Positions 13,415-43,682 of a stretch of DNA of 64,000 nt are shown piece after piece. The stretch comes from Prevotella sp. (GTDB lineage: Bacteria > Bacteroidota > Bacteroidia > Bacteroidales > Bacteroidaceae). A model generated the notes under the pieces. It worked only from the letters and a program-made list of their open reading frames with translations, ran no database searches and had not been told where the DNA came from. The position numbers and the translations under genes were made by a program. The stretch covers positions 1-64,000 of the forward strand of contig JAFZSI010000076.1 in assembly GCA_017619445.1 (NCBI GenBank). Reading direction: 5' to 3'. The first letter of the stretch is position 1. The number at the start of each line of letters is the position of its first letter.

Positions 13415-13420
13415 TCTCAA

Positions 13421-14020
13421 CTATATTAAATCAGCATTAATCAGTTTTATCAATTTACACCTGTTTCCAACAGCCAAATAGCCATCCGGTATATCTTTTG
13501 TAACAACGCTTCCCGCTCCGACAACGCACCAACGGCCGATCTTTACTCCTTGAATAATTGTCGTACCTGCGCCTACCCAAGAGCCTTCACCAACACTAAC
13601 ATTGCCACATAACGTGGCATGAGGCGAGACGTGAACATAATCGCCCAGTTGGCATTCGTGGTCAATGGAAGCACCTGTATTGATGATGCAATGCTTGCCT
13701 ATTACAGACTCAGCATTGATGATTGAACCGGCCATAACAACAGTTCCCTCGCATATTTCTGCAGAAGGAGAGACTATAGCACAAGGATGAACTGCTTTAC
13801 CAAAGCGGCAACTTAATCTTTCGGCCACTTTTTTCCTTATAGCATTCACCCCAATACTGACAATAATCTCGTCTTTATCTTCCATGGTATGAAAAACGGG
13901 AAGCCCACACAACATATCAATCTCAGGATTGTCGTCAATAAAACCATCAACAATCATCCCCTGAGCCTCAAGAATTTCCTTAATCACCTTTCCGTGACCA
14001 CTTGCTCCATATAAATACAT
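13421..14020 (-). CDS. pglD: PglD-like sugar O/N-acetyltransferase (left-handed beta-helix)
   Basis: 199 residues from the ATG at 14020; the frame extends to a TTG inside the preceding stop, which is less likely. The N-terminal Rossmann-like domain has MYLYGASGHGKVIKEIL, the hallmark of the PglD/NeuD group, and the C-terminal half is hexapeptide repeats (VVMAGSIINAESVIG, INTGASIDHECQLG, VHVSPHATLCGNVSVGEG). The His in SIDHEC aligns with the catalytic base of PglD. The enzyme would acetylate the 4-amino group of the UDP-sugar using acetyl-CoA. Tightly packed between the PglC-like and PglE-like genes. Confidence 0.88.
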   Translation of the reverse strand: MYLYGASGHGKVIKEILEAQGMIVDGFIDDNPEIDMLCGLPVFHTMEDKDEIIVSIGVNAIRKKVAERLSCRFGKAVHPCAIVSPSAEICEGTVVMAGSIINAESVIGKHCIINTGASIDHECQLGDYVHVSPHATLCGNVSVGEGSWVGAGTTIIQGVKIGRWCVVGAGSVVTKDIPDGYLAVGNRCKLIKLINADLI

Positions 14021-14022
14021 CT

Positions 14023-14631
14023 TCAATTGCTCCCATTAAATGGTTCTTTCGTTGCATGCCCTTCTTCGGAAATACCGTCTCGAATAAACACTTTTTTTAT
14101 TGTAATCAGAATTATCTTGATATCTGTCAGTAAACTAACATTGTCAACGTACCAAACATCATGTTTGAACTTCTCCGTCCAACTAATGGCATTGCGACCA
14201 TGACATTGTGCCCATCCGCTGATACCAGGTCGAACCTCGTGACGACGCGCCTGTTCAGGTGAATACAAAGGCAAATACTGTACAAGCAATGGCCTTGGCC
14301 CTATCAGTGCCATGTCGCCCTTCAAGACATTTATGAGCTGTGGTAGTTCGTCAATAGAAGTCGAGCGAACGAACTTACCCACCTTTGTCAGGCGCAGTTC
14401 ATCGGGCAGCAATTCACCATTCTCGTCCCGCTCATCAGTCATGGTCTTGAATTTTATCACCTTGAATATCTTTGCGTCTTTTCCTGGACGTTCCTGAAAG
14501 AAGAAGGCACCTGCACCTTTGTTGGCAAAATGCAACCAAACCGTCACCACCAACAGAACAGGGGAAAAACAGATAAGTGCGATAAGCGAAATCCAAAAAT
14601 CAAAAAAACGCTTAAAAAAATGCTTATACAT
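14023..14631 (-). CDS. pglC: Small phosphoglycosyl transferase (PglC-like initiating sugar transferase)
   Basis: 202 residues, the size of monotopic PglC rather than of the larger WbaP/WcaJ enzymes. One N-terminal re-entrant hydrophobic helix carries the Ser-Pro break ([11 protein letters not shown], residues 23-24), and the catalytic Asp-Glu pair sits in [20 protein letters not shown] (residues 94-95), followed by [13 protein letters not shown]. These match the PglC family closely. It would move the phospho-sugar, plausibly diNAc-bacillosamine, from UDP to undecaprenyl phosphate at the inner membrane, priming the repeat unit. It overlaps the upstream glycosyltransferase gene by 8 bases. Confidence 0.92.
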
Positions 14632-24755: not shown

Positions 24756-25418
24756 TCAAATAGCCTTGTCTAACATTTTCGAGATATACCAATCTGCTTT
24801 TTTGCAAAATTTGGTAATGTACCGAGAACGTTCAATACGGCCAGGTTTGAATCGCATTTTGGTTAAAACTCTTGACAATATGAAACGAGTCCTAATGTGT
24901 CGGTCAGTAAAAGGACATTCACCCAACCATTTTACAAATTCCACAGAATAGTGTTTTTGATAATATGCTGGGAAAAAACGTACTTCCTTAAATCCTTTTT
25001 TTGCAACGATCTCACGTAAAGCTGTGTTATTCTCCGCAGTATCCCCTTCAAGCATCTGAACATTATTCTCTGCGACAAACACATCACGCAGTTCGTTCAT
25101 TTCTTCCAGAATACCCAATCCCTGATATTTCTTTATTATAGCAGACATCATCCCCTTTGCAACAGTTTTATCTTTATCATACCATCTTTTACCCGTTGCT
25201 ATTCTTACTGATGTTGTGCCGACTAATGTATCACCGCAAAAAGCAACAAAACAACGGCCATTTTCACCAATATAGTTCTTCAACTCCTCACCTGACATAG
25301 TTGTAGTATTCATTACAACACCTTTTTCTATGTTTTTTTTATGAGCAGTCAGAATGAGTTCATGTATATCATCCCACGAAACCCAATCAGGTTTTTGCAT
25401 TACTTTAATTTCATCCAT
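24756..25418 (-). CDS. GNAT-family acyltransferase
   Basis: 220 residues with a GNAT core: CFVAFCGDTLVGTTSVRIAT, then AKGMMSAIIKKYQGLGILEE with the acyl-CoA loop near residue 105, and ENNTALREIVAKKGFKEVRF, the usual C-terminal helix-strand. A basic C-terminal tail of about 40 residues follows. It lies between ATP-grasp B and CapA-like B, 14 bases before the former, the one gene that distinguishes the second module from the first. The substrate is not predictable; acylation of an amine in the same substituent is a reasonable inference. Confidence 0.75.
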   Translation of the reverse strand: MDEIKVMQKPDWVSWDDIHELILTAHKKNIEKGVVMNTTTMSGEELKNYIGENGRCFVAFCGDTLVGTTSVRIATGKRWYDKDKTVAKGMMSAIIKKYQGLGILEEMNELRDVFVAENNVQMLEGDTAENNTALREIVAKKGFKEVRFFPAYYQKHYSVEFVKWLGECPFTDRHIRTRFILSRVLTKMRFKPGRIERSRYITKFCKKADWYISKMLDKAI

Positions 25419-25448
25419 ACAGAATCAACAATTACTAAAATCCCAAAA

Positions 25449-26612: not shown

Positions 26613-27356
26613 TTATTGAAGTGTGTAACCACCGTCTATTGTAAAGATGCTACCCGTAACCCATCGTGAAGCATCAGACAAAAGATAAATACAGCCATTT
26701 GCTATGTCTGAAGGAGTTCCAAAGCCCAAGGGATGTCTTTCCTCGTAGAACTTCAGAAAATCATCCTCTTCAATGGCTCCACTGTTCAACAATCTTGATG
26801 GCACAAAACCTGGTTGGATACAGTTAACACGGATGTTCTGCTTAGAAGTCTCAAGGGCCATTGCCTTGGCAAAAGAATTGACAGCACCCTTGGTAGCCGA
26901 ATAGAGAGAATTGCCAACCTTAACATTGAATGTAGATACTGATGAGATAAACACTACAGATCCTCCGTGATTGAGTTTTTTCTTCTTTAACAGACGACTA
27001 CAAAACCTTATGTTTCCCAAAATATTGGCATTGAATATTTCAAACATCGCATCCTCTCTGATGTTTTTAACTGGCATGGTCTTTACAATACCGGCACAAA
27101 GAACCACTCCGTCAATGACTGGCAAGACATCAACCAAATCGTAAATATCGTCAACGACGGAAAGGTCGGACTTATGAATTACATGCCCTTCTCCTTCCAT
27201 TAACATGAGTGTTTCGTTTAACCGCTCTTCATTACGGGCCATCAGATGAACTTTAGCACCCATCTTGGAGCAGTCAATGCAGATTCCCTTTCCAATGCCC
27301 GAAGAAGCGCCAGTCACAAGTATTGTTTTACCTTCAATGGAGAATGGGTTATACAT
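26613..27356 (-). CDS. Short-chain dehydrogenase/reductase, FabG-like (copy 1)
   Basis: 247 residues of the classical SDR family: cofactor loop ILVTGASSGIGKGI (near 16-25), VVLCAGIV, catalytic Ser in VVFISSVSTF and the Tyr-x3-Lys in SLYSATKGAVNSFAKAM, and a C-terminal WVTGSIFTIDGGYTL. Closely related to 33943-34692, sharing the unusual opening YNPFS-(I/L)-EGK and RNEERLNET. In context it would reduce the 3-ketoacyl-ACP made by the adjacent ketoacyl synthase to a 3-hydroxyacyl-ACP; a sugar-nucleotide substrate remains possible. Confidence 0.85.
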   Translation of the reverse strand: MYNPFSIEGKTILVTGASSGIGKGICIDCSKMGAKVHLMARNEERLNETLMLMEGEGHVIHKSDLSVVDDIYDLVDVLPVIDGVVLCAGIVKTMPVKNIREDAMFEIFNANILGNIRFCSRLLKKKKLNHGGSVVFISSVSTFNVKVGNSLYSATKGAVNSFAKAMALETSKQNIRVNCIQPGFVPSRLLNSGAIEEDDFLKFYEERHPLGFGTPSDIANGCIYLLSDASRWVTGSIFTIDGGYTLQ

Positions 27357-27367
27357 ATCCGATACAA

Positions 27368-28435
27368 TTAAAGATACATTAAATCAGGAACAATTATACC
27401 ACCATTTGTCTTTATTTGGGCCACTCCAAGGGAAAATCCCACTCCAATGGTTGCAGCAAGCATATTAAGTTGGCGATCATGCAATTCTTTCTGTAATTCT
27501 GTAATCATTAATAGCGGAATAGTAGCTCCACTAGTGTTGCCGAACTCTTGTATGTTATAAGGCACTTTCTCTGGGGGGAACTTCATCTTCTTTCGTAGTT
27601 TCTCACAAAGGAACTTGTTTGCTTGATGAAGTAGCAAGTAATCAACTTCATCTTGTTCTATGTTGAATCTTGTACGCATTTCCTGATAAACTTTAGGGAT
27701 AAAATGCGTACCGTACGAGAACACCTCATCACCAATCATTTTCTCATGCAGACGAGTACGACGGATGCCGTCGCCATAATCTTCCATAACAAAAGATTTT
27801 TCGTTGACAGGATTTCGCGACCCACCATCTGGCAAGATAACAAACTCTCTTCCCGATCCATCTGACATGTAAGTAACATTTACCTCATCTTTCGAATTTG
27901 GGTCATACTCTATGGCTGTAACTGTGCCTGCATCACCTAACAACAAAGACATGCTACGGTCTTCAGGACTAGCATATTCGGATTGCGTGTTACCTACCAT
28001 CAACAAGCCTTTGCGGAAAGAACCAGTAGCCATCAAGTTACCCATCACTCCAAGTCCAACAAGGAAACCTGAACAACCAAGGGTGATGTCGAAGGCCAGA
28101 CAAGAAGTTGGAATGCCCATTTTATCCTGAAGCACAATGCCCGTGGCTGGAAGTTTATAATCAGTCGTGTGGGACACAAAAACAAGAAGGTCTATCTCAT
28201 TTTTATCCCAGCCCATGTCTGTAATCAACCTCTCTGCTGCTTTTTGGCAGAGGTCGGAAGTGCAAATGCTGCCATCATGAATGGCGCAATGCCGACGTTC
28301 CACACCTGTAACATTAATATATTTCTGAATTTCCTCAACTGTCATCCCTGGATAATTCCTGTTTTCCTCAACACGAGCAGGAACGCACCCCGCCATACCC
28401 TTGATGGAAATGTTTTTAACGCTAATAGAAGACAT
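27368..28435 (-). CDS. 3-oxoacyl-ACP synthase III (FabH-like, copy 1)
   Basis: 355 residues of the thiolase fold with the full KAS III triad: Cys121 in ITLGCSGFLVG, His270 in YLLLHQANKFLCEKL and Asn300 in EFGNTSGATIPLLM. KAS III condenses an acyl-CoA primer with malonyl-ACP. Housekeeping fabH usually sits with plsX; here it lies between an SDR reductase and an acyl carrier protein inside a polysaccharide locus, so a dedicated role in making an acyl substituent is inferred. About 355 residues is slightly longer than typical FabH. A second, diverged copy is at 30509-31570. Confidence 0.92.
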   Translation of the reverse strand: MSSISVKNISIKGMAGCVPARVEENRNYPGMTVEEIQKYINVTGVERRHCAIHDGSICTSDLCQKAAERLITDMGWDKNEIDLLVFVSHTTDYKLPATGIVLQDKMGIPTSCLAFDITLGCSGFLVGLGVMGNLMATGSFRKGLLMVGNTQSEYASPEDRSMSLLLGDAGTVTAIEYDPNSKDEVNVTYMSDGSGREFVILPDGGSRNPVNEKSFVMEDYGDGIRRTRLHEKMIGDEVFSYGTHFIPKVYQEMRTRFNIEQDEVDYLLLHQANKFLCEKLRKKMKFPPEKVPYNIQEFGNTSGATIPLLMITELQKELHDRQLNMLAATIGVGFSLGVAQIKTNGGIIVPDLMYL

Positions 28436-28496
28436 TGTTCAAATTAAAATTTGAGGGAAGCACTTCCTTCTATGAAAATGCTTCCCTTTTGTTGGT

Positions 28497-28724
28497 TTAC
28501 TTAGACTCAACAAGATTGTACAATTCCTCAATGGTTGTACAATTACGCAGATCAGCACCAGTCACGCGTTTATCCATTTCGTCATCAACCATTGAAATAA
28601 TGGATAAAGCAATGAGTGATCCCCATTCTTCCAGTTCTCGATAATGAGTGTCTGCCTTGAAGTTATCTTCAGGCGTGTCGTCAAACTCGGCTGCAAAAGC
28701 CTTTACAAATTCGTCTAATGTCAT
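28497..28724 (-). CDS. Acyl carrier protein 1
   Basis: 75 residues, acidic and helical, of the phosphopantetheine-carrier family. The prosthetic-group Ser is Ser36 in LEEWGSLIALSII, where housekeeping ACP has a DSL motif; here Asp is replaced by Gly. It is a near relative of 34700-34933, sharing TLDEFV at the N-terminus and the Y-R-E-L-x-E-W-x-S-L-I signature. Encoded directly between KAS III and the malonyl transacylase, which would load it. Altered residues around the Ser suggest a specialised carrier recognised by the locus enzymes rather than by bulk fatty acid synthesis. Confidence 0.88.
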   Translation of the reverse strand: MTLDEFVKAFAAEFDDTPEDNFKADTHYRELEEWGSLIALSIISMVDDEMDKRVTGADLRNCTTIEELYNLVESK

Positions 28725-28735
28725 GTCATAAAAAT

Positions 28736-29692
28736 TTAAAGGTTATTATTATTCCTAATAATTTTGTAGTTTTTTACATTACAATAATAGGTAGGCACAT
28801 CAAGCAACGATTGGCTGTGCAAGTCTGGATACATACGATGCACGATTTTCTCCAAAGTGTCATCAGTGCCGACTTCATAAAACTCAGTTACTCCATCTTT
28901 AGCCATATTACGTGTCATTTCTGTCCATAATACAGGATGAGTAATATGCTGGATTAAATTCGATTTAATCTCATCAGGGTCAGTATGAGGCAACGCATCA
29001 ACACACTGATAAACAGGGATAGTTGGTTTTGAGAATCTGGTTGCCTCGATAATTTTTCCCAACTCCTCACGAGCCTCATTCATAAATGGAGTATGAAAAG
29101 AACCACCAATGGGTAACGAAACAGCTTTTTTAGCTCCTTCTTTCATAAAGGCCTTGCAGGCTAAACGTACCCCTTTTTTGCTTCCAGAAATAACAACCTG
29201 CCCAGGACCGTTATAATTGGCAAAATAAATGGGTTCTCCTGTTTCGTCCCAAATCTCCTTGATTCGTTTTGCGACATATTCGTCGCTTAAGCCTATGACA
29301 GCTCCCATGCCCGTCTTTACAGGTGCATTCTCATATGCCTTTTGTCCTATAACTGCACGGTTGAGAACAAGATTCAGACCGTCCTCAAAACTTATCGTAC
29401 CATTAACTACCAAGGCAGCAAACTCTCCTAGAGAATGACCTGCCACAACATCTGGCACAATATCTTTTTGCGTTATGGCAAGTGCCACTTCATATAGAAA
29501 CACTGAAGGTTGTGTATTGACGGTTTCCATCAATTCCTCTTCGGTACCATCGAACATCACATCGGTTATACGCCTGCCAAAGAAATCGTTGGCTCGTTCA
29601 AACAAATCATGGGCTTCAGGAAATTTCTCATATAAATCCTTGCCCATTCCTTCCTTTTGACATCCTTGGCCTGGAAAAATAAATGCTTTCAT
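28736..29692 (-). CDS. fabD: Malonyl-CoA:ACP transacylase
   Basis: 318 residues. Transfers malonyl from CoA to an acyl carrier protein. The active-site Ser is Ser87 in AGHSLGEFAALV, His is near residue 200 in IGGSFHTPFM, the carboxylate-binding Arg is Arg112 in LVLNRAVIGQ, and the N-terminal oxyanion loop is FPGQGCQKEGMG. The Arg supports malonyl rather than acetyl specificity. Housekeeping FabD is usually elsewhere, so this is probably a dedicated copy supplying malonyl-ACP to the two ketoacyl synthases of the locus. It lies 11 bases from the carrier gene. Confidence 0.9.
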   Translation of the reverse strand: MKAFIFPGQGCQKEGMGKDLYEKFPEAHDLFERANDFFGRRITDVMFDGTEEELMETVNTQPSVFLYEVALAITQKDIVPDVVAGHSLGEFAALVVNGTISFEDGLNLVLNRAVIGQKAYENAPVKTGMGAVIGLSDEYVAKRIKEIWDETGEPIYFANYNGPGQVVISGSKKGVRLACKAFMKEGAKKAVSLPIGGSFHTPFMNEAREELGKIIEATRFSKPTIPVYQCVDALPHTDPDEIKSNLIQHITHPVLWTEMTRNMAKDGVTEFYEVGTDDTLEKIVHRMYPDLHSQSLLDVPTYYCNVKNYKIIRNNNNL

Positions 29693-29697
29693 CTGAA

Positions 29698-30498
29698 TTA
29701 TTCGCTATGTCTGAAATAAGTACGTGCTTTAGGAGAAATCTTATTAATTATTTGAGCAGGATTACCTGCCACAATGGAATTAGCAGGAACAGGTTTTGTC
29801 ACAACAGAACCAGCAGAAATCATAGCATTCTCTCCAATCTCTGTTACACCCGGCATGATAATTGACCGTGCTCCAATTAAGGCATTGTCCTTAATCGTTA
29901 ATGGAGTGTTGTGAGCTCTGTGTGTTGCATTATGAATCAACTCGCTGTCATCATATAATCCAAAGTAATCATGATCGTGGGTCAGAATTTTACATCCTTC
30001 AGCAAGCGAAACGCCATTACCAATAACCAAATCGCCTGTATAATCAATATCAATATCACGGGCAAACAAAACATTATCCCCTATGGTTAGTTTTCCTGCA
30101 TGAAGATGCTCTGCAATAAAAATAACACCGTATTGAACTTGGCAATGTTTACCCATATGGAAATGCTTAATGTAGGCATTCTTGCGACATCTCCTTTTTT
30201 TACTGGACTTTTCCCATTCTATACCAGAGTATTTAACAAGAAAACGCCTGTTTTCATTATACTGTTTTAAACTATTCTTCTTTACGAGAAGTTGATGCAA
30301 CAAAATACCCCTTTCTTCATCAGAAAGTGTTCCGATTCTTTTTGAAAGATACTCTGAAGCTTTAACACCATAATTGCAGTAAAGCGAAATAATGTCTTTA
30401 CTGATAGTTACTAAGGAACGCTTGTCACCTGTCTTAATTGACTGTTTTGCATAATTGGGAACACGCAACAACAATCGAAGAAAATAACTAATAGTCAT
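29698..30498 (-). CDS. Left-handed beta-helix acyltransferase
   Basis: 266 residues. The N-terminal ~110 residues are basic and helical ([18 protein letters not shown]); the C-terminal part is hexapeptide repeats of the LbH acyltransferase class: [40 protein letters not shown], the active-site region around [20 protein letters not shown] and [20 protein letters not shown] ending GNPAQIINK. Maltose/galactoside acetyltransferase-like proteins with this end are common in surface polysaccharide loci. Sitting among ACP, ketoacyl synthase and ligase genes, it is the best candidate to move the finished acyl group onto the sugar, though a simple acetyl donor cannot be excluded. Confidence 0.82.
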
Positions 30499-30508
30499 AA
30501 GTAATACT

Positions 30509-31570
30509 TTATACCTTATTTATTGGAAGAACCAACATGGGTTGGGTTTTCAATAGCATTGTGCCCCATGTCAATCCCAATCCAAAAGAAGAACACAACA
30601 AAGTCATTGGTCTTTGGGATAATTCTTTTGCCAACTCTGAAACCATTAGCATGATAATTGAAGCACCTCCCAAATTTCCGAACATCTGAAGGTTGTAAGG
30701 AACTTTCTCTGCAGGTAATTTGAGTTTCTTTACTAATCGATCAACAATCAGTTTATTTGCCTGATGAATCAAAAAATAATCAATATCCTTCTCTTTGTCA
30801 AGTCCTTTTTCTTCAAGCATCTTTTTCACGCTAATGGGCGGTTTGGTGATGGCAAAGGAGAACACATCCATTCCAATAATCAAAGCATCTTTCGGCGCAC
30901 GGATAATTCCATTTCCAAAGTCCTCGTATTCAAACGATGTTTCTTTTTCAATTGGATGGCGGTATCCGCCATGCGGGGTCATCAATGCATCATATCCTGA
31001 ACCTAAAGTGTTGAAATCAATAACAATTTCATTGGCATTTGTATCGAATTCCAATGCTATAGCCGTGCCACTATCTCCGAAAAGAGGGCTACGACTTTTA
31101 TCTTTGGGTGAGCCCATGCGCATAGCTGTGTCACCCACTAAGACTAATGCTCGCTTTGCCGTTCCTGCTGAAAGGAGATTTCCCGCTACATTAATTCCAT
31201 ACATACATCCGCAGCATCCCATAGGAACGTCGAGAACAAACGTTTTAGAAGGCAAACCCAAACGGTTCTGAAGAATGGCCGAAGTAGGCGGTGTCTTGTA
31301 ATCGCCCGTAACAGAAACAAACAACAACACATCAATACTATCTTTTGGCCAACCCAAGCCCTCCAATAATCGCTCTGCAGCATCAAAACAAAGGTCTGAT
31401 GCACAAATATCCATAGGGGCAATGTATCTGTTTTTAATACCTACGGTGGCATCAAACAAATCTGCCTCTTCTTTTGTAAAGAAAGGGAAATCTGCTGTCT
31501 TTACGGGATTGTTGGGTACAGTGCCCGTAACACCCCTTAAAGCAACATTTTTAATACTCCAGTATGCCAT
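30509..31570 (-). CDS. 3-oxoacyl-ACP synthase III (FabH-like, copy 2)
   Basis: 353 residues, same fold as 27368-28435 and with the same KAS III triad: Cys119 in [11 protein letters not shown], His269 in [15 protein letters not shown] and Asn299 in [14 protein letters not shown]. Differences around the active site (a second Cys directly after the nucleophile, and GNLGGASI instead of GNTSGATI) suggest a different primer. Its start codon shares one base with the stop of the carrier at 31570-31809, indicating coupled expression with that carrier. It probably performs a second or alternative condensation; which primer is used is unknown. Confidence 0.9.
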
Positions 31571-31809
31571 CAGAGTTCAATCTCGTATTTTGCCAAGACA
31601 GTCTTGGCGTTATCATAGGAGGTAAATTCCAGAATATCCTCAGCGTCCAGCATGATGTCAAACTCGTCCTCAACAGAAGAAGTAAGGCTAAGCTGACGGA
31701 CAGAGTCCCACCCGTCAATGTTGCTGTTATTAAAATCGCTATTCAATGCTGATTCTTCTACGCCGAAGACCTCGCAAAATATTGCATTCAACTTCTCTAA
31801 ATTAGTCAT
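31570..31809 (-). CDS. Acyl carrier protein 2
   Basis: 79 residues, acidic, with the phosphopantetheine Ser at 36 in NIDGWDSVRQLSL; here the DSV form is closer to standard ACP/PCP than in the other two carriers. It is flanked by the AMP-forming ligase (6 bases) and by ketoacyl synthase copy 2 (1-base overlap), suggesting that this carrier receives the primer activated by the ligase and hands it to the synthase. No close similarity to the other two carriers beyond the fold. Confidence 0.88.
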   Translation of the reverse strand: MTNLEKLNAIFCEVFGVEESALNSDFNNSNIDGWDSVRQLSLTSSVEDEFDIMLDAEDILEFTSYDNAKTVLAKYEIEL

Positions 31810-31815
31810 AATAAT

Positions 31816-33195
31816 TTATTGATTTATTACTTTACCTGATTCATTTCTTAAGATAGCTTCAACTATTTGAACTTCAATGTTCTTATGGAACAGATGTGTT
31901 TTTTCTTCAATAAAAGCTGGTAATTGGTCGGCTATTGCTGGACTGGTAACAAGGATAATGAGTTTCTCGTCGTTTCCTTTACAATAACAGTCAACATGGT
32001 ATTCCGACTTTATCATATTCTCAACCTCATCCAGTCCTATTCTCAATCCAAAAATCTTTAAGAACCGTTTGAGACGACCAACAATATAATAACAACCATC
32101 TGCATCACGATAGGCTAAGTCACCAGTATGCATGACGCCGTGGTTCTCGTCTCCTTTCGTCAGGTCTTCAAGGCATTTGGCATAACCAAGAGTGACATTT
32201 TCACCACGATAGACCATCTCACCTGTAGCCTCTCCCTCAAAAGTCTCTTTGCCATCATTATCTATGATAGACAACTGACCTCCAGGTTCAGCGATGCCAA
32301 TACTACATGTTTTTTCCATTGCCATTTCTGCAGGCAGATAAGCCATTCGAGCCGTGCATTCCGATTGGCCGTAGGTTGCAATAAACTTTTTGCCTTTATC
32401 TTGTGCATATTGAGCCAAGGATTGCCACATTTCAGAAGTCAGTTTTCCTCCTCCTTGGGTTATAATTCTCAGGTTGGGCAAATCCATTCTTGTAAACCGC
32501 ATTTTTTTCAGGATATCGTAACTATACGGAACTCCTGTGAAACTGGTGGCTTCTTTCAGCATTGTCCAGAATCCCTTATCCAAAAGAGACCTGCCAGAGA
32601 GTAACAATGTTGCACCGGCAAGCAGATGTGAAGCAATGACCGACAGTCCCATCGTATAGTGCATGGGAAGAATGGCCATAGCTTTCTCGTTATCAGTCAA
32701 TTCGAACATTCTCCTGACATTATCCGCGTTAGCTTCAATGTTCCTGTAGCTATGTCGAACCAATTTGGGACTGCCTGTTGAGCCTGATGTGGGCAGCAAC
32801 AAAGACAGTTCCTCATATAAAGGAACAGGAGGGAATCCTGTCTTCACTAAGGTATAATCCCATGCGGAGAACACGCATTCATACCCTAACTGATTCACCA
32901 TCTCATCTGGCACCCACATATATTCGGGCTTATACATATCACGAAGATTCGTGTACAACCCCTTTTCAGTCTTGACACTGATAATAAGCGAAACAATCCT
33001 GTTTGACAGTGAAGAAGTATAGCCTAATAACGAGCCTATCTTATTCTCAGAAAGGATAAAGATAAGAGATCGTTGAGGCAAGTACTTGGCAAACTTTTGT
33101 GAGAAGTCACAAATGTCACCGTATGTAACAGAACGGCCACTGTCGTCAATGACGGCAACTTTGTTCCTGTTTTTTTTGTCTAAATTGAGAAACAT
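31816..33195 (-). CDS. AMP-forming acyl ligase (acyl-CoA/acyl-ACP synthetase family)
   Basis: 459 residues from the ATG at 33195, 4 bases after the preceding reductase stop; the frame could extend to 33228 but would overlap it. ANL-superfamily motifs: phosphate loop LLPTSGSTGSPKLVRHSY near 130, ATYGQSECTARM near 280, HTGDLAYRDADGCYYIVGRL near 360 and LKIFGLRIGLDEVE in the hinge. It is shorter than most acyl-CoA ligases, resembling stand-alone acyl- or aminoacyl-ACP loaders. It would activate a carboxylic acid as adenylate and load the adjacent carrier. Substrate not predictable. Confidence 0.87.
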   Translation of the reverse strand: MFLNLDKKNRNKVAVIDDSGRSVTYGDICDFSQKFAKYLPQRSLIFILSENKIGSLLGYTSSLSNRIVSLIISVKTEKGLYTNLRDMYKPEYMWVPDEMVNQLGYECVFSAWDYTLVKTGFPPVPLYEELSLLLPTSGSTGSPKLVRHSYRNIEANADNVRRMFELTDNEKAMAILPMHYTMGLSVIASHLLAGATLLLSGRSLLDKGFWTMLKEATSFTGVPYSYDILKKMRFTRMDLPNLRIITQGGGKLTSEMWQSLAQYAQDKGKKFIATYGQSECTARMAYLPAEMAMEKTCSIGIAEPGGQLSIIDNDGKETFEGEATGEMVYRGENVTLGYAKCLEDLTKGDENHGVMHTGDLAYRDADGCYYIVGRLKRFLKIFGLRIGLDEVENMIKSEYHVDCYCKGNDEKLIILVTSPAIADQLPAFIEEKTHLFHKNIEVQIVEAILRNESGKVINQ

Positions 33196-33199
33196 CTTC

Positions 33200-33937
33200 T
33201 TAGATGATGGCACCACCGTCAACACCAATGATTTGCCCTGTTATATAAGTAGAATGGTCAGAAGCAAGGAAAAGACATAGATTTGCAATCTCATCTGGTT
33301 CTGCCAGGCGTCCAAACGGCACATCGTTGATTTTCTGTGCAAACTTCTCAGCCAAAACAACCTTGAACCGCTCTGAACCAACCATGCCAGGAGCGATGGC
33401 ATTGACTCGAATCTTATGCTCAGCGAGTTCTTTAGCAGCAGACTTGGTAGCGGCAATTACGGCTCCTTTGGTGGCGGAATAAGACAACTGGCCTTTGGCA
33501 CCCTTTTCTCCCACCATGCTGGCCATATTTATAATGGATCCACTTTGCTGACGGCTCATGATTCTTGACACCAACGACATGAAATGAATCAATGCCACAA
33601 CATTCACATCCAGCATCTTTCGAAAGAAGTCGTAGTTAATCATCGGCATCAGTTCGTAGGAAATAAGCCCAGCTATATTCGCCAATACATCAATACAACC
33701 ATGCTCCTTCTTGATTGTCATAACCAAGTTTTTGACTTCACTGAAATCGCAAATATCAAGTTCTTTCGCTATAATCCGAGTGCCGTTTGATTCCTCTGGA
33801 TTTACCCAATTTAATCCTTTGATGTCCACAGCATAAACTGTTGCACCTTCTTCTGCAAACAACTGTGCCGTTGCTTTTCCAATGCCAGCATCAGCTCCAG
33901 TGACAATACAGATTTTATTATTCAATAGCTTGCCCAT
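33200..33937 (-). CDS. Short-chain dehydrogenase/reductase (copy 2)
   Basis: 245 residues with classical SDR motifs: CIVTGADAGIGKATAQLFAE (cofactor loop), the Asn-Ala-Gly-type LANIAGLI segment, Ser in INMASMVGEKGAKG and the Tyr-x3-Lys in LSYSATKGAVIAA, ending YITGQIIGVDGGAII. It is more diverged from the copies at 26613 and 33943 than these are from each other, so it may act on a different intermediate. Expected to reduce a ketoacyl-ACP or a sugar ketone. Lies in a run of genes separated by 4-6 bases. Confidence 0.85.
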   Translation of the reverse strand: MGKLLNNKICIVTGADAGIGKATAQLFAEEGATVYAVDIKGLNWVNPEESNGTRIIAKELDICDFSEVKNLVMTIKKEHGCIDVLANIAGLISYELMPMINYDFFRKMLDVNVVALIHFMSLVSRIMSRQQSGSIINMASMVGEKGAKGQLSYSATKGAVIAATKSAAKELAEHKIRVNAIAPGMVGSERFKVVLAEKFAQKINDVPFGRLAEPDEIANLCLFLASDHSTYITGQIIGVDGGAII

Positions 33938-33942
33938 AACAT

Positions 33943-34692
33943 TTATATAGTTACTCCTCCATCAATTACCAGAGAATGACCAGTGACCCAAGATGAAGCA
34001 TCAGACAACAAATAAATGATACCATAAGCTATGTCTTGTGGCTCGCCGTAACGTTTCAAAGGATACTTTTCCATATCCAACTCATACTGTTCTTCAGATA
34101 TTGCTCCATTATGTATCAGTTTTGTATTTACCATTCCTGGATTAACAGTATTCACTCTGATTTTCTTTACAGCTAATTCCTTTGCACAAAACCTCATTGT
34201 AGAATTTATAGCTGCTTTTGATGCACCATATACACAATTACCTAATGAAAACGATTCTACCCCACCAATGGAAGAAACAAACACGACCGATGATTCCTTT
34301 CCAATTCTTTTTTTCTTTACAAGAAGTCTCAACAACTCAACAGGGGCATAAAAGTTTATTTCAAAAACAGAATCATATTTATCGCGAGATGAGAACAAAA
34401 ATGGTGAGGTCATCCCAATTCCTGCACATAATACGACTCCGTTCAGAGTATCCACTTTGTTTACTAAATTCTCAACTTCCTCTTTATGAGTCAGTTCCGA
34501 AACAATCATAGAATGTCCACCTCCTTCTAACTGAAGGAATGTCTCATTAAGCCGTTCTTCGTTGCGTCCTGAAATAATCAAACTCGCACCCAATTTGGAA
34601 CATTGGATGGCTGTTTCTTGACCAATACCAGAAGATGCGCCTGTGACAAGTATAGACTTGCCTTCAAGTGAAAACGGGTTATAGTCAAGCAT
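33943..34692 (-). CDS. Short-chain dehydrogenase/reductase (copy 3, close to 26613-27356)
   Basis: 249 residues; motifs SILVTGASSGIGQETA, VVLCAGIG, VVFVSSIGGVESF with the catalytic Ser, and NCVYGASKAAINS with Tyr and Lys, ending WVTGHSLVIDGG. Shares the opening YNPFSLEGK and RNEERLNET with copy 1, so the two are recent paralogues. The neighbouring carrier (34700-34933) is likewise a paralogue of carrier 1, so the reductase and carrier appear to have been duplicated together. Probable 3-ketoacyl-ACP reductase; NAD(P) preference not determined. Confidence 0.85.
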   Translation of the reverse strand: MLDYNPFSLEGKSILVTGASSGIGQETAIQCSKLGASLIISGRNEERLNETFLQLEGGGHSMIVSELTHKEEVENLVNKVDTLNGVVLCAGIGMTSPFLFSSRDKYDSVFEINFYAPVELLRLLVKKKRIGKESSVVFVSSIGGVESFSLGNCVYGASKAAINSTMRFCAKELAVKKIRVNTVNPGMVNTKLIHNGAISEEQYELDMEKYPLKRYGEPQDIAYGIIYLLSDASSWVTGHSLVIDGGVTI

Positions 34693-34699
34693 CGTAATG

Positions 34700-34933
34700 T
34701 TATAGTTTGCTTAAAATGGTATTGTATACGTCTTCTATTGTTGTTACTGATCTAAAATCATTCGCTTTTAAAGCAACGCCAAACTCCTCATCAACCATTG
34801 CAATTAACGAAAGTCCAATTAACGAAGACCATTCGTCAAGTTCACGATAATCGGTATCAGGAGAAAAAACGTTCGAATCTGTTTCATCGAACAATTCTGC
34901 AAACATTTCTACAAATTCATCAAGAGTTTTCAT
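34700..34933 (-). CDS. Acyl carrier protein 3 (paralogue of carrier 1)
   Basis: 77 residues; the likely phosphopantetheine Ser is Ser37 in LDEWSSLIGLSLI. The pattern KTLDEFVEMF, YRELDEW and IAMVDEEF parallels carrier 1 (TLDEFVKAF, YRELEEW, ISMVDDEM). It precedes the reductase copy 3 gene by 7 bases and begins 4 bases after the flippase stop, so it is the first gene of the acyl block in transcription order. Confidence 0.87.
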   Translation of the reverse strand: MKTLDEFVEMFAELFDETDSNVFSPDTDYRELDEWSSLIGLSLIAMVDEEFGVALKANDFRSVTTIEDVYNTILSKL

Positions 34934-34937: not shown

Positions 34938-36410
34938 TTACAATTTATTAAACCTAAAAAAATTCTTTATTCTCTCATAAGGTACAACTGTAAGGAAATA
35001 GGTGTATGCTTCTGGCTTGAAAAAAATAGACCATGACATATAAACAATCACATATACAATCAACTTAATTATACCATCAGGATACATATCCAAATTAAGT
35101 ATCTTCCCACAGAAAAAACTAATTGCTGCAGCCGTTAATGAAGCTATTGTTACAGGTAAAAGATCTAGTAATTGTCTCCACCATTTATATCCTATATGTT
35201 TTGATACCAAGCCGATATTAACAAAATATGAAAACCAAGTATTAAATACCATACCAACTAATAATCCATTCATACCCCATAAGGCCAAACCTCCCACGAC
35301 CAAACCTATTCCAATTATTCTTTTAACTAAAGTCCATAAAAACATTGTTCTGCTTTTCCCTATTGCAGAAATTGTTTGCAAATTAACGGATTGTAAACAA
35401 TAAGCTAAACCTGCTATACATAATACCTGAAAATAAGGAACACTCTGCAACCACCTATCTGAATAAAGCAACACAAATATTGGCTTTGCACAGAGCAACA
35501 GAATAAACATCAAAGGGAAAGTAATATATGACAAAGTCATCGTCAACCGCTTAACCATGTTCTGCATCTTCTCTTTATCGTCTTGAACCTCAGCATACAA
35601 TGGATAAGTTACTTGGGTCATCACCTGAGAAATGCTTGTTGAAGCCAGTTTTTCCAAGCCCTGTGCCTTTGAATAAAAGCCCATAGTGGACGGATTATAC
35701 ACTTTACCTATCAACAATCCTTGAAATTGTTGTCCAAATCGATTGACTAAATGTGTCAAAAACATATAGAATCCGAAACTAAACAACTCTTTTAAAGATT
35801 TCCAAGAAAATGTCCAAATAGGACGCCATTTGACATAGAACCAAAAAACTAACGATGGAATAGCGGCAACTATTAAATTTTGAGCTACCAATGACCACAC
35901 ACCGAAACCTTTATACGCCATAAAAACTGTTACGCACAACGCGATAACAGCAGTACTTACAGAGACGATGGAAAGCAGTTTGAAATTGAGCTTCTTCTTC
36001 AGTTGATTCCGCTGTATGATATTCAGAGCATAAATAAAGAGCACCAGGCCTTGCACACGTAAAACATCACATAATACAGGAATTTTATAGAAGCGGGCTA
36101 TGGCGGGAGCACAAAAATACAAGACAATATACATTACAACTGCAACTGCAACATTCCACCAAAAAATAGTTGAATAATCCACTTGTGTGGGACGCTTTTT
36201 TTGGATTAATGCAGAACCAAAACCACCATCAATGAACGATTCCGCCAGAACCATGAAAATGGCAAGCATACCTATGCAGCCATAGTCATATGGTGTAAGC
36301 AAACGAGCCAAAATGATACCCGAAATAAACTGAATAATCATTTTCGAGTATTTTTGGAATGCTGTCCACACCATTCCTGATGCGGCTTTCTGCTTAAGGT
36401 TTTTTGCCAT
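34938..36410 (-). CDS. Wzx-type polysaccharide flippase (MOP superfamily)
   Basis: 490 residues with about 12-14 transmembrane helices. Opening AKNLKQKAASGMVWTAFQKY and FISGIILARLLTPYDYGCIG are the usual start of PST-family (WzxC-like) exporters; SFIDGGFGSALIQKKRPTQ and RFGQQFQGLLIGKVYNPSTM follow. It would move undecaprenyl-linked repeat units across the inner membrane, before the Wzy-like polymerase at 18718. Located between two lipoprotein genes and the acyl block. A second, unrelated-looking flippase is encoded at 45501-47042. Confidence 0.9.
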   Translation of the reverse strand: MAKNLKQKAASGMVWTAFQKYSKMIIQFISGIILARLLTPYDYGCIGMLAIFMVLAESFIDGGFGSALIQKKRPTQVDYSTIFWWNVAVAVVMYIVLYFCAPAIARFYKIPVLCDVLRVQGLVLFIYALNIIQRNQLKKKLNFKLLSIVSVSTAVIALCVTVFMAYKGFGVWSLVAQNLIVAAIPSLVFWFYVKWRPIWTFSWKSLKELFSFGFYMFLTHLVNRFGQQFQGLLIGKVYNPSTMGFYSKAQGLEKLASTSISQVMTQVTYPLYAEVQDDKEKMQNMVKRLTMTLSYITFPLMFILLLCAKPIFVLLYSDRWLQSVPYFQVLCIAGLAYCLQSVNLQTISAIGKSRTMFLWTLVKRIIGIGLVVGGLALWGMNGLLVGMVFNTWFSYFVNIGLVSKHIGYKWWRQLLDLLPVTIASLTAAAISFFCGKILNLDMYPDGIIKLIVYVIVYMSWSIFFKPEAYTYFLTVVPYERIKNFFRFNKL

Positions 36411-39814: not shown

Positions 39815-40975
39815 TCAGAATTTCCGCCACACCATTTTGTTGACTATGCCAGTGTAGCTTTGAATGATTTTCACGACCTTCGTGCTGACATTCTCCTCGA
39901 TGTAGTCGGGAACGGGAATGCCGTAGTCGCCGTTCTGGTTGAGCGTAACGGCGGTATCAACGGCCTGGAGGAGCGAGTGCTCGTCGATGCCGGCAATGAT
40001 GAAGCAGGCTTTGTCAAGGGCTTCGGGGCGCTCTGTGCTGGTGCGGATACATACGGCAGGGAACGGATGACCAATGCTGGTGAAGAACGAGGATTCTTCG
40101 GGAAGCGTACCGCTGTCGCTAACTACAGCAAAGGCGTTCATCTGCAGACAGTTGTAGTCGTGGAACCCAAGAGGTTCGTGCTGAATGACACGAGGGTCGA
40201 GCTGGAAACCACTCGCTTCCAAACGCTTGCGGCTGCGGGGATGACAACTATAGAGAATAGGCATGTCATATTTCTCAGCCATGCGATTGATAGCGGTAAA
40301 GAGCGACAGAAAATTTTTCTCTGTGTCGATGTTTTCCTCACGATGAGCACTCAACAGGATATACCTGCGTTTCTTCAGCCCAAGACGCTTGTGAATGTCA
40401 GACGACTCAATCTCCTTAAGGTTCTGGTGGAGCACCTCGGCCATGGGAGAACCCGTGACATAAGTACGCTCACGAGGCAAGCCACACTCAGCCAGATAAC
40501 GACGAGCATGTTCCGAGTATGCCATGTTAACATCAGAGATAATATCAACAATACGGCGGTTGGTCTCTTCGGGCAGACATTCATCCTTGCACCGATTGCC
40601 CGCTTCCATATGGAAGATGGGGATGTGCAAGCGTTTTGCACCTATTACAGAAAGACAAGAATTGGTGTCGCCCAACACCAGCACGGCATCGGGCTTTATC
40701 TCAACCATCACCTTGTAAGACTTGTCAATAATATTGCCCATCGTAGCACCGAGGTCATCGCCCACGGCATTCATATAGATGTCGGGGTCGGCAAGTTTCA
40801 GGTCGCGGAAGAACACGCCATTGAGATTATAGTCGTAGTTCTGTCCCGTATGGGCAAGAAGTGTGTCAAAATACTGACGGCACTTATTGATGACTGCTGC
40901 TAAGCGGATTATTTCAGGACGCGTGCCCACGATAATCAGCAACTTCAACTTTCCGTTATTCTTAAATTCAGCCAT
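39815..40975 (-). CDS. wecB: UDP-N-acetylglucosamine 2-epimerase family (CapG/WbjD-type)
   Basis: 386 residues of the non-hydrolysing 2-epimerase family: LLIIVGTRPEIIRLAAVINK, HTGQNYDYNLNGVFFRDL, PDAVLVLGDTNSCL, HMEAGNRCKDECLPEETNR and ILLSAHREENIDTEKNF with the catalytic-pocket His and Glu. Following capE and capF in transcription order, it most likely performs the last step of UDP-N-acetyl-L-fucosamine synthesis (2-epimerisation of UDP-L-FucNAc's talose isomer), as in the CapE-CapF-CapG and WbjBCD pathways. Plain UDP-ManNAc formation is the alternative. Separated from capF by a four-helix-bundle gene. Confidence 0.88.
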   Translation of the reverse strand: MAEFKNNGKLKLLIIVGTRPEIIRLAAVINKCRQYFDTLLAHTGQNYDYNLNGVFFRDLKLADPDIYMNAVGDDLGATMGNIIDKSYKVMVEIKPDAVLVLGDTNSCLSVIGAKRLHIPIFHMEAGNRCKDECLPEETNRRIVDIISDVNMAYSEHARRYLAECGLPRERTYVTGSPMAEVLHQNLKEIESSDIHKRLGLKKRRYILLSAHREENIDTEKNFLSLFTAINRMAEKYDMPILYSCHPRSRKRLEASGFQLDPRVIQHEPLGFHDYNCLQMNAFAVVSDSGTLPEESSFFTSIGHPFPAVCIRTSTERPEALDKACFIIAGIDEHSLLQAVDTAVTLNQNGDYGIPVPDYIEENVSTKVVKIIQSYTGIVNKMVWRKF

Positions 40976-40999
40976 ATACTATGAAAGATTCAATTGTTT

Positions 41000-41450
41000 G
41001 AAAAGTTTAAGGGTTTAATCCCTATTCTTTGTATTTAGCACCTGTGATGTCACTGGCTTTTATCTCTTTGATGAAGTTCATAATGCCTGCAGAAAGTTTA
41101 CGGCAGTCATTGTACAGTTCATCATACTCTTCTTGAGTTAAATAACCAACATCATTAGCTCTGATAAGCTGAGAGCGGACTTCGCCGGAAGAACCTTTGG
41201 CAATGTATAAGAAGTTCAAGAATTCTTTATTGCCGCCTCTTTCAAAGCCCTCGGCTATATTGTCCATGACAGAACCAGAGGCAGCCCGTATTTGTTGTAC
41301 AAAGCGGAAGTCGTTTTTGAACTCACCCCTTTGGGTGATTGGGTAAATCTTCTTTGAAAGCTCACGTGCTTTCTGAAAGATTGCCAGATCTTCAAAATAC
41401 TTTACCGCTGCCATTTTAAACTCCTAAACTCTTAAACTCTTAAACTTTTT
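41000..41450. repeat. Inverted-repeat-bounded cassette around the four-helix-bundle gene
   Basis: At 41000-41017 AAAAGTTTAAGGGTTTA occurs; at 41416-41450 TAAACTCTTAAACTTTTT and further TAAACTC copies form its reverse complement. The two flank a single small gene (41022-41414). The right arm also contains the last codons and stop of capF, so if the unit was inserted, it redefined the capF end. No transposase is encoded. Confidence 0.55.
41022..41414 (-). CDS. Four-helix-bundle protein (S23/IVS-encoded protein family)
   Basis: 130 residues predicted as all helix, of the 23S rRNA-intervening-sequence protein family: YFEDLAIFQKARELSKKIYP, QIRAASGSVMDNIAEGFERG (the family's most constant segment) and KGSSGEVRSQLIRANDVGYL. 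The family also includes the Avd accessory protein of diversity-generating retroelements, but no reverse transcriptase or variable repeat is nearby. Free-standing copies are common in Bacteroidota genomes and their role is unknown. Here it interrupts the capF-capG pair and is bounded by inverted TTTAAGAG-type repeats. Confidence 0.88.
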   Translation of the reverse strand: MAAVKYFEDLAIFQKARELSKKIYPITQRGEFKNDFRFVQQIRAASGSVMDNIAEGFERGGNKEFLNFLYIAKGSSGEVRSQLIRANDVGYLTQEEYDELYNDCRKLSAGIMNFIKEIKASDITGAKYKE

Positions 41451-42639
41451 CTCCGTACGTATCTGGATGTTTCGGGTCGAACTGTTCGTTGGCCCACATT
41501 ACCGTAACAAGGTTCTCTGTATCAGAGAGATTGATGATGTTATGCGTATAGCCAGGCAGCATGTGCACTGCCTCTATCTTGTCGCCGCTCACCTCGAACT
41601 CAATAACTTCGTCGCTGTCAATCTTCCGTTCCTGAATCAGCCCGTGGCCGCTGACTACAATGAAAAACTCCCACTTAGTGTGATGCCAATGCTGTCCTTT
41701 GGTGATGCCGGGCTTAGAAATATTCACACTAAACTGCCCGCAGTTAGCGGTCTTCAGCAGTTCGGTGAACGAACCGCGATCGTCAATATTCATCCGCAAC
41801 GGGAAAGCAACTTTTTCCTTGGGCAGGTAGCTCAGGAAAGTAGAGTACAACTTCTTTTCGAACGAATTATTGGGAATCTCTGGCATCAGTAGCGTCTGCG
41901 GCTGCTCATTGAACAAGTTTATCAGCTCAACAATATGTCCCAGCGTCACTTTGTGTGTTATGGGGCAAAAACAATATCTGCCATCCTGCTTGGCAATCAC
42001 CTCCAGCCCGTCGAACTCACAGCGGTGCTCGTTTCCTTCGAGTGCATCGAGCATTTCAGTGACCAGGTCGTCTATATACAGCAGTTCCAGCTCCACGCTG
42101 GGGTCGTTCACCTGTATGGGCAGGTCGTTGGCGATGTTGTTGCAGAAAGTAGCTACGGCAGAGTTGTAGTTCGGACGGCACCATTTGCCGAAGAGATTGG
42201 GAAAGCGATATATCAGCACCTTGGCCCCCGTTTCCTCCTGATAGTGCAGGAACAAGTCTTCGCCGGCTTTCTTGCTGCGTCCATACTCACTGTTGCCAAA
42301 GCGTCCCGTAAGCGATGCCTGCTGCGAGCTGGAGAGCATCACAGGGCACGTATTGCCCTGCTTTTTCAGTGTGTTGAGCAATGTGGAAGCAAATCCGAAA
42401 TTACCCTCCATGAACTCGGAAGCCTCTTTCGGGCGATTTACACCTGCCAGATTGAAAACAAAGTCAGCCTCCTTGCAATACTCATCGAGTAGCGAGGGGG
42501 CTGTATCTATGTCATACTCCAGAATCTCGTCGATTTGCAGGTTTGGACATGTGCGGTCTTTTCCTTCCTTAATATTTCTCAGCGAGGCACAAAGGTTTCT
42601 GCCTGCAAATCCCTTGGCTCCTGTAACAAGAATCTTCAT
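41440..42639 (-). CDS. capF: CapF-type bifunctional reductase with C-terminal cupin
   Basis: 399 residues. N-terminal Rossmann reductase: MKILVTGAKGFAGRNLCASL, FVFNLAGVNRPKEASEF, SSSQQASLTGRFGNSEYGRS and LIYRFPNLFGKWCRPNYN. C-terminal ~130 residues form a metal cupin: GITKGQHWHHTKWEFFIVVS with two His and a Glu, then HMLPGYTHNIINLSDTENL. This two-domain form is diagnostic of CapF/WbjC, which epimerises at C3 and reduces at C4 in UDP-L-FucNAc synthesis. Lies 2 bases downstream of capE. Its final codons and stop fall in the repeat at 41433-41450. Confidence 0.93.
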   Translation of the reverse strand: MKILVTGAKGFAGRNLCASLRNIKEGKDRTCPNLQIDEILEYDIDTAPSLLDEYCKEADFVFNLAGVNRPKEASEFMEGNFGFASTLLNTLKKQGNTCPVMLSSSQQASLTGRFGNSEYGRSKKAGEDLFLHYQEETGAKVLIYRFPNLFGKWCRPNYNSAVATFCNNIANDLPIQVNDPSVELELLYIDDLVTEMLDALEGNEHRCEFDGLEVIAKQDGRYCFCPITHKVTLGHIVELINLFNEQPQTLLMPEIPNNSFEKKLYSTFLSYLPKEKVAFPLRMNIDDRGSFTELLKTANCGQFSVNISKPGITKGQHWHHTKWEFFIVVSGHGLIQERKIDSDEVIEFEVSGDKIEAVHMLPGYTHNIINLSDTENLVTVMWANEQFDPKHPDTYGEKV

Positions 42640-42641
42640 CG

Positions 42642-43682
42642 TTATTGCTTTGCCAGCTCATTCTGGATATACTCTAGCGAAGCTATCTTCGCTTTGGTCT
42701 CCTCCAGATTTAGGCGCTGGGTGTTGTTGGAATTGAACTCCTCAATCATGGCACGCTTCACGTTGCCCTCAGTGAAATACTTATCGTAGTTCAGGTCACG
42801 GTTATCTGCCGGCACACGGAAGAAGTTGCCCATGTCAATAGCTTTCGAGCATTCTTCCTTGGTGAGCAGTGTCTCATACATCTTCTCGCCGTGTCTTATC
42901 CCAATAACCTTGATGTCCTCTTTTTTGCCTCCAAACAGCTCGCACACGGCCTCGGCCTGGGTCTGGATGGTGCAGGCCGGTGCTTTCTGCACCAGGATGT
43001 CGCCACTCTCGCCATGCTCAAAGGCAAAGAGCACCAAGTCAACGGCCTCATCCAACGACATGATGAATCGAGTCATTGTAGGTTCGGTCACGGTGACGGG
43101 CAAACCATGGCGTATCTGGTCAATCCAAAGGGGTATGACAGAACCGCGCGAGCACATCACATTACCGTAACGTGTGCAGCAGATTTTTGTTCTCGTCGGG
43201 TCGCACTGTCTTGCCTTGGCAACGGCAACTTTTTCCTCCACGGCCTTGGTAATTCCCATGGCGTTCACGGGATAGGCTGCCTTGTCGGTTGAAAGACAAA
43301 TCACCGACTTCACCCCCTGTTCAATGGCGGCAGTCAGCACATTGTCAGTGCCGATGATGTTTGTGCGCACGGCCTCCATGGGGAAGAACTCGCACGATGG
43401 CACCTGCTTCAAGGCCGCAGCATGGAAAATATAGTCGGTGCCGGGCATAGCTGAGCGCACACTTTCCAATGAGCGCACATCGCCGATATAAAACTTTATC
43501 TTGTGCGCCTCCTGTGGAAACAGAACCTGATACTCATGGCGCATGTCGTCTTGTTTCTTCTCATCACGCGAGAAAATGCGTATCTCGCGGATGTCGGTGT
43601 TCACGAAACGGCGCAGCACAGCATTGCCAAACGAGCCCGTGCCGCCCGTAATCATAAGGGTTTTGTCTTTGAAAATAGACAT
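42642..43682 (-). CDS. capE: CapE-type UDP-GlcNAc 4,6-dehydratase/5-epimerase
   Basis: 346 residues, soluble SDR: KTLMITGGTGSFGNAVLRRF, IFSRDEKKQDDMRHEYQ, DYIFHAAALKQVPSCEFFP, CLSTDKAAYPVNAMGITKAV and TRYGNVMCSRGSVIPLW. The first enzyme of the UDP-L-FucNAc route; the following capF and capG-type genes complete the set. Shares the catalytic pattern with the membrane dehydratase at 10124-12064 but lacks its membrane domain. First gene of the 35 kb polysaccharide transcription unit; the promoter candidate lies 342 bases upstream, leaving a long leader. Confidence 0.93.
   Translation of the reverse strand: MSIFKDKTLMITGGTGSFGNAVLRRFVNTDIREIRIFSRDEKKQDDMRHEYQVLFPQEAHKIKFYIGDVRSLESVRSAMPGTDYIFHAAALKQVPSCEFFPMEAVRTNIIGTDNVLTAAIEQGVKSVICLSTDKAAYPVNAMGITKAVEEKVAVAKARQCDPTRTKICCTRYGNVMCSRGSVIPLWIDQIRHGLPVTVTEPTMTRFIMSLDEAVDLVLFAFEHGESGDILVQKAPACTIQTQAEAVCELFGGKKEDIKVIGIRHGEKMYETLLTKEECSKAIDMGNFFRVPADNRDLNYDKYFTEGNVKRAMIEEFNSNNTQRLNLEETKAKIASLEYIQNELAKQ

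Follow-up and report, generated by a model that had tools for sequence, protein, structure and literature searches.

A block of eleven consecutive open reading frames (ORFs), all on the minus strand at positions 26613-34933 of a 64,000-nucleotide stretch of Prevotella sp. DNA (assembly GCA_017619445.1, contig JAFZSI010000076.1, positions 1 to 64,000; hereafter the window), probably encodes a dedicated acyl-acyl carrier protein (acyl-ACP) assembly line, built from exchangeable units, that supplies an N-acyl (less likely an O-acyl) group for a sugar of a surface polysaccharide. The conserved core of the block splits into an extension unit E, made up of ACP1, the short-chain dehydrogenase/reductase SDR1 and a ketoacyl synthase (KS), and a primer unit P, made up of SDR2, an adenosine monophosphate (AMP)-forming acyl ligase and ACP2. 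To this six-gene core the window adds SDR3, KS1 and ACP3, together with a FabD.

Relatives were collected by a pattern scan of a genome collection for KS2, the beta-ketoacyl-ACP synthase III (KAS III) of the core, which detects close relatives only and returned 58 loci, with record titles naming Bacteroidia, Bacteroidales or taxa within them; at least one genome, Butyricimonas sp. Marseille-P3923, holds two of the loci. The earlier note on this DNA had put forward the order of all eleven genes as the set to search for elsewhere, but the part that is conserved is ACP1-SDR1-SDR2-ligase-ACP2-KAS III, and 53 of the 58 loci have a call for each of these six gene types. Among the incomplete cores, contig ends truncate L015 and L033, no ACP2 was called in L024 and L052, and no SDR1 in L061. 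The strict order, with one KS permitted after ACP1, is kept in 36 loci, and the ligase adjoins ACP2 in 54. FabD occurs in just four (L007, L036, L043, L049), and genes like SDR3, KS1 and that for the left-handed beta-helix (LbH) protein are occasional. One same-genus genome (L154) reads PglD-ACP1-SDR1-SDR2-ligase-ACP2-KS2-PglC-FlaA1.

The two units are found apart across genomes. Ligase matches at E 1e-60 or better occur in eight of 393 genomes drawn evenly from the order, the source genome among them; of the other seven, two carry the complete core (L145, L151), and for the remaining five (L146-L150) the stretch fetched shows no KS. Two of these five, L147 and L150, are short contigs, and in L150 neither carrier nor SDR is seen either. 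L149 reads PglD-SDR2-ligase-ACP2 with no KS nearby. Conversely, 16 ligase-less stretches (L129-L144), picked for having a KS, gave best matches of the ACP1/3 class only, several of them alongside PglD. The same division is seen in the trees. In the ACP tree, a clade of 22 rows (Shimodaira-Hasegawa-like approximate likelihood ratio test, SH-aLRT, 97) joins the window's ACP2 with four of five carriers from KS-less ligase loci. ACP1 and ACP3 lie on the ACP1/3 side (support 94) together with 19 of 20 carriers from ligase-less KS loci. In the SDR tree, SDR2 groups with all three SDRs from KS-less ligase loci (support 87), and SDR1 and SDR3 lie on a side (support 88) with 16 of the 20 SDR rows from ligase-less KS loci, the other four falling off it. 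The KAS III tree, for which the KS2 rows were thinned, gives the core KS2 a single clade of its own (24 rows, SH-aLRT 100), distinct from FabH, with KS1 on a long branch outside both. Matches to KS2 at E 1e-60 are found in 20 of 394 genomes of a phylum draw (own genome excluded), all at most 43% identical. By hand count, about 65 of the 393 order genomes have a KS1-type match above about 205 bits; at E 1e-40 the number is 94, a level at which FabH-like matches enter.

Gene set and catalytic residues can be read directly from the window, and here the earlier note was borne out. The coordinates are exactly as it gave them, and Pfam and NCBIfam matches identify three SDRs, two KAS III, three phosphopantetheine-binding carriers, an acyl/malonyl transferase, an AMP-binding ligase and a hexapeptide (LbH) transferase, in the order SDR, KAS III, ACP, FabD, LbH, KAS III, ACP, ligase, SDR, SDR, ACP from low to high coordinate. 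Its claim of intact active sites likewise stands. The KAS III Cys/His/Asn triad is kept throughout the 109 non-FabH KAS III compared (80 + 29), the two window enzymes included, the carrier Ser in 63 of 63 ACP1/3-class and 56 of 56 ACP2-class rows (window included), and the ACP2-class motif WDS[VI] in 56 of 56. Judged by eye, the GHSLGE Ser, the Arg and the FHTPFM His of FabD are all there, motifs whose roles we take as given. The window SDRs carry YxxxK, which FabI-type enoyl reductases lack. Among the ligases, what we take to be core motifs A3, A5, A7 and A8 are present in 58 of 58 and an A10-like NxxGK in 56. The first A4 pattern tried matched none of the 58, the window reading PMHYTMGL and the consensus PLYYTMGL; the Asp expected for amino-acid substrates is absent, and beyond this the acid class is not narrowed. 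The ligase probably starts at ATG 33195 (459 amino acids), four bases past the SDR2 stop, rather than at TTG 33228, and the ORFs of its relatives span 436-481 amino acids. Also in line with the note, no Pfam match to FabA/Z (PF07977) or FabF/B (PF00109) was found among the 39 window ORFs submitted, a subset of those between 446 and 47042. In the 58 loci, blastp with own-genome queries found no FabZ, hotdog or KAS I/II-type protein, a search that distant homologues can escape; its controls worked (window KS2 in 58/58, FabD in 4/58).

These observations enabled us to propose a model for the pathway. The ligase of unit P would adenylate a carboxylic acid and load it onto ACP2, and SDR2 would make or reduce that acid or acyl group. 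In unit E, KS2 would take the acyl group off ACP2 and condense it with malonyl-ACP1, and SDR1 would reduce the resulting 3-keto group; this ACP2 to KS2 to ACP1 transfer, the number of condensations, the acid and the acceptor are all predictions of the model. The second set, E' (KS1, ACP3 and SDR3, with FabD loading malonate), would provide either a second chain extension or a second acyl group. The product would be passed to an LbH acyltransferase, most likely the PglD-family protein, and placed on the 4-amino group of uridine diphosphate (UDP)-QuiNAc4N, supplied by the PglF/PglE homologues, ahead of repeat-unit assembly. Because no dehydratase or KAS I/II was seen in the locus, the product is expected to be short and hydroxylated. 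The earlier note had envisaged one condensation and a 3-hydroxybutyryl-like product. The first point does not sit well with two KAS III here, when the closest published relative uses two for a six-carbon chain (PMC6519341; for this and the papers cited below, statements refer to the portions of text consulted), and the second is weakened by the ligase and second ACP, which suggest a primer other than acetyl.

That relative is the wfp gene set of Flavobacterium psychrophilum, in which wfpC, wfpE, wfpD, wfpF and wfpG have author-predicted roles in forming 3,5-dihydroxyhexanoyl on Qui2NAc4N, the structure having been determined by NMR (PMC6519341; also given in PMC3210612). It shares with the window a Bacteroidota host, two KAS, an ACP, a ketoreductase and a PglD homologue in an O-polysaccharide locus, with QuiNAc4N and L-FucNAc, but has L-Rha as third sugar and, in the text consulted, one ACP, one reductase, no ligase and no FabD (PMC6519341). 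The window's PglF-, PglE-, PglD- and PglC-like genes and its FucNAc set fit two of the three F. psychrophilum sugars. The window shows the sequence features of a private acyl-ACP cassette of the wfp or vio kind (intact KAS III triad, own ACP with phosphopantetheine Ser, YxxxK SDR, and a PglD/VioB-type acyltransferase in the locus, although non-adjacent). A wfp cassette proper has no AMP ligase and a single ACP, whereas the window has a ligase (31816-33195), FabD, a further LbH protein and three each of ACPs and SDRs. Private ACP/KAS III/ketoreductase sets in glycan loci are published (PMC3927599, PMC6519341), and the earlier description of an undescribed system does not hold for the general plan, which is already known. 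The element that appears to be new is the ligase-ACP2 starter unit: no description of a ligase-KAS III-ACP cassette in polysaccharide loci was found in the open-access literature, judged partly by title and start of abstract. In the main text of PMC5601056 no occurrence of 'acyl' was seen.

Simpler chemistry is known from the viosamine island of Pseudomonas syringae, where vioS, vioR, acp and vioB serve to make dTDP-N-(3-hydroxy-1-oxobutyl)-2-O-methylviosamine, mutants in some of the genes were examined by mass spectrometry, and homologous genes occur in P. aeruginosa PAK as orfB-orfE (PMC3927599). These sets share with the window a private KAS III, ACP, reductase and sugar acyltransferase and a 3-hydroxybutyryl-type acyl group, but the island has one KAS III, one ACP and no ligase among its seven tabulated genes, and the viosamine belongs to a flagellin glycan (PMC3927599). 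A 3-hydroxybutyryl group on QuiNAc4N is also known (PMC9676051, PMC3210612); in Acinetobacter, qhbCB/gdr (QuiNAc4NHb) places 3-hydroxybutanoyl on the same 4-amino group, although no KAS III, ACP or ligase appears in the module as listed (PMC9676051). Other acids occur as well, such as 2-hydroxyglutaryl on 2,4-diamino-trideoxyglucose in Flexibacter maritimus (PMC3210612). It is conceivable, if unlikely, that the window follows this simpler route, with a KS joining an acetyl primer to malonyl-ACP, an SDR reducing the product and LbH or PglD transferring it, and with the ligase and extra ACP left to salvage or a side function. Such a 3-hydroxybutyryl pathway leaves unexplained why ligase, ACP2 and SDR2 stand alongside KS2 in 53 of 58 loci, and why there are two KAS III with separate carriers.

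Several observations weigh against the explanation that we favor. Three KS-less ligase loci carry split transketolases (L146, L148) or LuxE/LuxC genes (both in L148; LuxE, the sole neighbour tested, beside ligase-ACP2-LbH in L147). The ligase-ACP2 pair may accordingly serve a different chemistry, and these loci may form C-C bonds in some other way when making a sugar substituent. In L153, a KS locus with no ligase, a second carrier finds its best match in ACP2 (38%), and both this carrier and one from L146 lie outside the ACP2 clade on long branches. Support values come from quick searches and are modest for the deep forks (85-97), the ACP alignment has 81 columns, and long branches were flagged in the tree building. 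The window's PglD lies about 13 kb from the block, as against adjoining ACP1 in 33 of 55 relatives, and three more candidate acyltransferases are present (LbH and two GNAT-like proteins). Finally, the positions of FabH Trp32 and Arg36, which we take to be coenzyme A (CoA) contacts, are lost in all 109 non-FabH KAS III, those of ligase-less cassettes among them; the loss is general to this group and therefore gives no evidence that the ligase supplies the KS2 primer, and we dropped it as proof of such a link. A reading in which separate substituents come from the ligase unit and from the KS units, for different acyltransferases (PglD, LbH, GNAT), draws on the KS-less ligase units with PglD (L149) or LbH (L147) and on the several acyltransferases of the window. 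We consider it improbable, as the separate KS2 clade and the 36 loci in strict order, where KS2 comes after ACP2, speak for a handover between units.

The earlier note had recognised that its reading would fail if these were the only fab genes of the genome. They are not: another FabD, 50% identical to that of the window, lies on contig C50, and a strong FabA/Z match lies in a 461-amino-acid ORF on contig C74, which we read as LpxC-FabZ. The assembly, which is 85.2% complete, does return the window's own two KAS III (50-54 bits) as its sole matches to that family, and shows no KAS I/II that we judged housekeeping. On contig C54 (330-11363), ketoacyl synthase matches cluster with a weak hotdog match; this cluster may be of the aryl-polyene type, and its matches were therefore not counted as housekeeping FabF. 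In every one of the 23 same-genus genomes searched, however, KAS III gives a match at E 2e-28 or better, as against 3e-14 for the window's, and we read these strong matches as FabH. Against four FabH extracted and aligned (three same-genus, one from another family), the window KAS III share the family and the Cys/His/Asn triad but are 27-30% identical, separate in the tree and without the Trp32/Arg36 positions. With no FabH-type KAS III in the block and no dehydratase or KAS I/II seen alongside among the ORFs submitted, the idea of oddly placed housekeeping fatty acid synthesis genes is hardly credible, and we rejected it on the grounds of the extra FabD and FabA/Z match, the FabH-type matches of the congeners and the KAS III divergence.

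The setting of the block is that of a polysaccharide locus, as the earlier note had stated, with Wzx, glycosyltransferases and homologues for UDP-FucNAc and UDP-QuiNAc4N synthesis around it, and the block probably feeds sugar acylation. UDP-QuiNAc4N is most likely the acceptor, because the window has PglF-, PglE-, PglD- and PglC-like genes and because in 33 of 55 relatives a PglD-type gene immediately precedes ACP1 (in six, Wzx does). The same adjacency argues for PglD rather than LbH, the final acyltransferase of the earlier note, and the window's own PglD has PDB matches to perosamine N-acetyltransferase, VioB and UDP-N-acetylbacillosamine N-acetyltransferase. PglC-type genes occur in 45 of the 58 loci and a DegT cluster in 36. 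As natural-product clusters generally also contain KAS III, ACP, ligase and SDR genes, a stand-alone secondary metabolite or lipid pathway could have come to lie in a capsule locus by chance; the PglD adjacency, the PglC-type genes and the placement of the window block between Wzx and further polysaccharide genes make this very improbable. One of the two GNAT-like proteins (24756-25418, the GNATb cluster) has no Pfam match and has kin in 12 of the 58 relatives. GNATb is nearly exclusive with an ACP1-adjacent PglD (one of 12 GNATb loci versus 32 of 44 others; Fisher p 8e-5, uncorrected for kinship). We set it aside as the acyltransferase, since a TagD-like match occurs in 10 of the 12 GNATb loci (versus two of 46 others) and the protein may belong to a phospho-substituent module.

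A broader proposal, which we put forward tentatively and hold to be more doubtful than the assembly line itself, is that Bacteroidales possess a small trans-acting polyketide-like line in which interchangeable starter units (SDR2-ligase-ACP2, the acid varying by species) are set on a single extension unit (ACP-KAS III-SDR) or on two, yielding combinatorial polyhydroxy acyl groups on the amino sugars of capsules or O-antigens, with the KS2 clade being carrier- rather than CoA-primed KAS III. If so, gut and rumen Bacteroidales would own a compact mix-and-match acyl system that would change surface glycan antigenicity. Once the acid used by the ligase is identified, a sugar substituent not yet seen could be predicted from the sequences of more than 50 genomes (58 loci). 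The core would also be a natural setting in which to test whether a KAS III can be primed by a carrier protein. Strains of F. psychrophilum with differing R-group genes do differ antigenically (PMC6519341).

Genes of the acyl block and of the surrounding polysaccharide locus, with the matches on which each assignment rests.
Feature	Coordinates	Strand	Basis
SDR3, reductase of E'	26613..27356	-	PF13561/PF00106
KS1, second KAS III	27368..28435	-	PF08545/PF08541
ACP3, carrier of second extension set E'	28497..28724	-	PF00550
FabD, second malonyl-CoA:ACP transacylase	28736..29692	-	TIGR00128 265.1 bits, cut-off 260.9
LbH acyltransferase	29698..30498	-	PF00132/PF14602; top PDB matches O-acetyltransferases
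KS2, KAS III of six-gene core	30509..31570	-	PF08545/PF08541
ACP2, carrier of unit P	31570..31809	-	PF00550; WDS[VI] motif
AMP-forming acyl ligase (AMPL), unit P	31816..33195	-	PF00501
SDR2, reductase of unit P	33200..33937	-	FabG-like, NF004198 202.5 bits, under model cut-off 296
SDR1, probable 3-ketoacyl-ACP reductase of unit E	33943..34692	-	PF13561/PF00106
ACP1, carrier of unit E	34700..34933	-	PF00550; Ser motif WSSL
PglF/FlaA1-like UDP-GlcNAc 4,6-dehydratase	10124..12064	-	PF02719; best PDB matches 5bju series, 'WlaL protein' (presumably PglF)
PglE-like aminotransferase	12134..13420	-	PF01041; best PDB matches 1o61, 4ztc (both presumably C. jejuni PglE)
PglD-family sugar N-acyltransferase, candidate final enzyme	13421..14026	-	TIGR03570 221.9 bits, cut-off 160.8
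PglC-like priming phosphosugar transferase	14023..14631	-	PF02397
Wzx-type flippase	34938..36410	-	PF13440/PF01943
CapG-, CapF-, CapE-like set for UDP-L-FucNAc	39815..43682	-	profile matches

The block is flanked by the Wzx flippase on one side and by CapA-like, ATP-grasp, LicD and glycosyltransferase genes on the other. G+C content is 35-43% across about 14-40 kb of the window and 43-57% in the surroundings, as expected of an exchangeable polysaccharide locus. In the FucNAc set, the best models for the CapE- and CapF-like proteins score under their equivalog cut-offs and the epimerase over that of wecB; a gene for an S23-type (23S rRNA-intervening-sequence) protein (41022-41414) sits between the CapG- and CapF-like genes. 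A 446-amino-acid ORF (18718-20058) has no Pfam match and, from its position and its hydrophobicity as judged by eye, may be the polymerase. Just downstream of the block, 21047-26603 holds two ATP-grasp genes (21047-22252, 23530-24741), two PGA_cap/CapA-like genes (22333-23469, 25449-26603) and a GNAT-like gene, which may together represent a duplicated module for ligating amino acids or peptides. The interval 36434-39388, which separates Wzx from the TagD-like gene, encodes a BPL_N-domain protein and a calcineurin-like phosphoesterase.

Some relatives carry additional genes in or beside the operon. Five loci (L022, L024, L032, L034, L035) have a common ORF (cluster c39) between SDR2 and the ligase, PD-(D/E)XK nuclease-like where tested (L032), and cluster c72 (L008 and L034, both tested) matches AAA-ATPase_like and PDDEXK_9 within or beside the acyl operon. 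In L046 an Acyl_transf_3 protein lies between SDR2 and the ligase, and in L009 a pyruvyltransferase-like ORF precedes SDR2.

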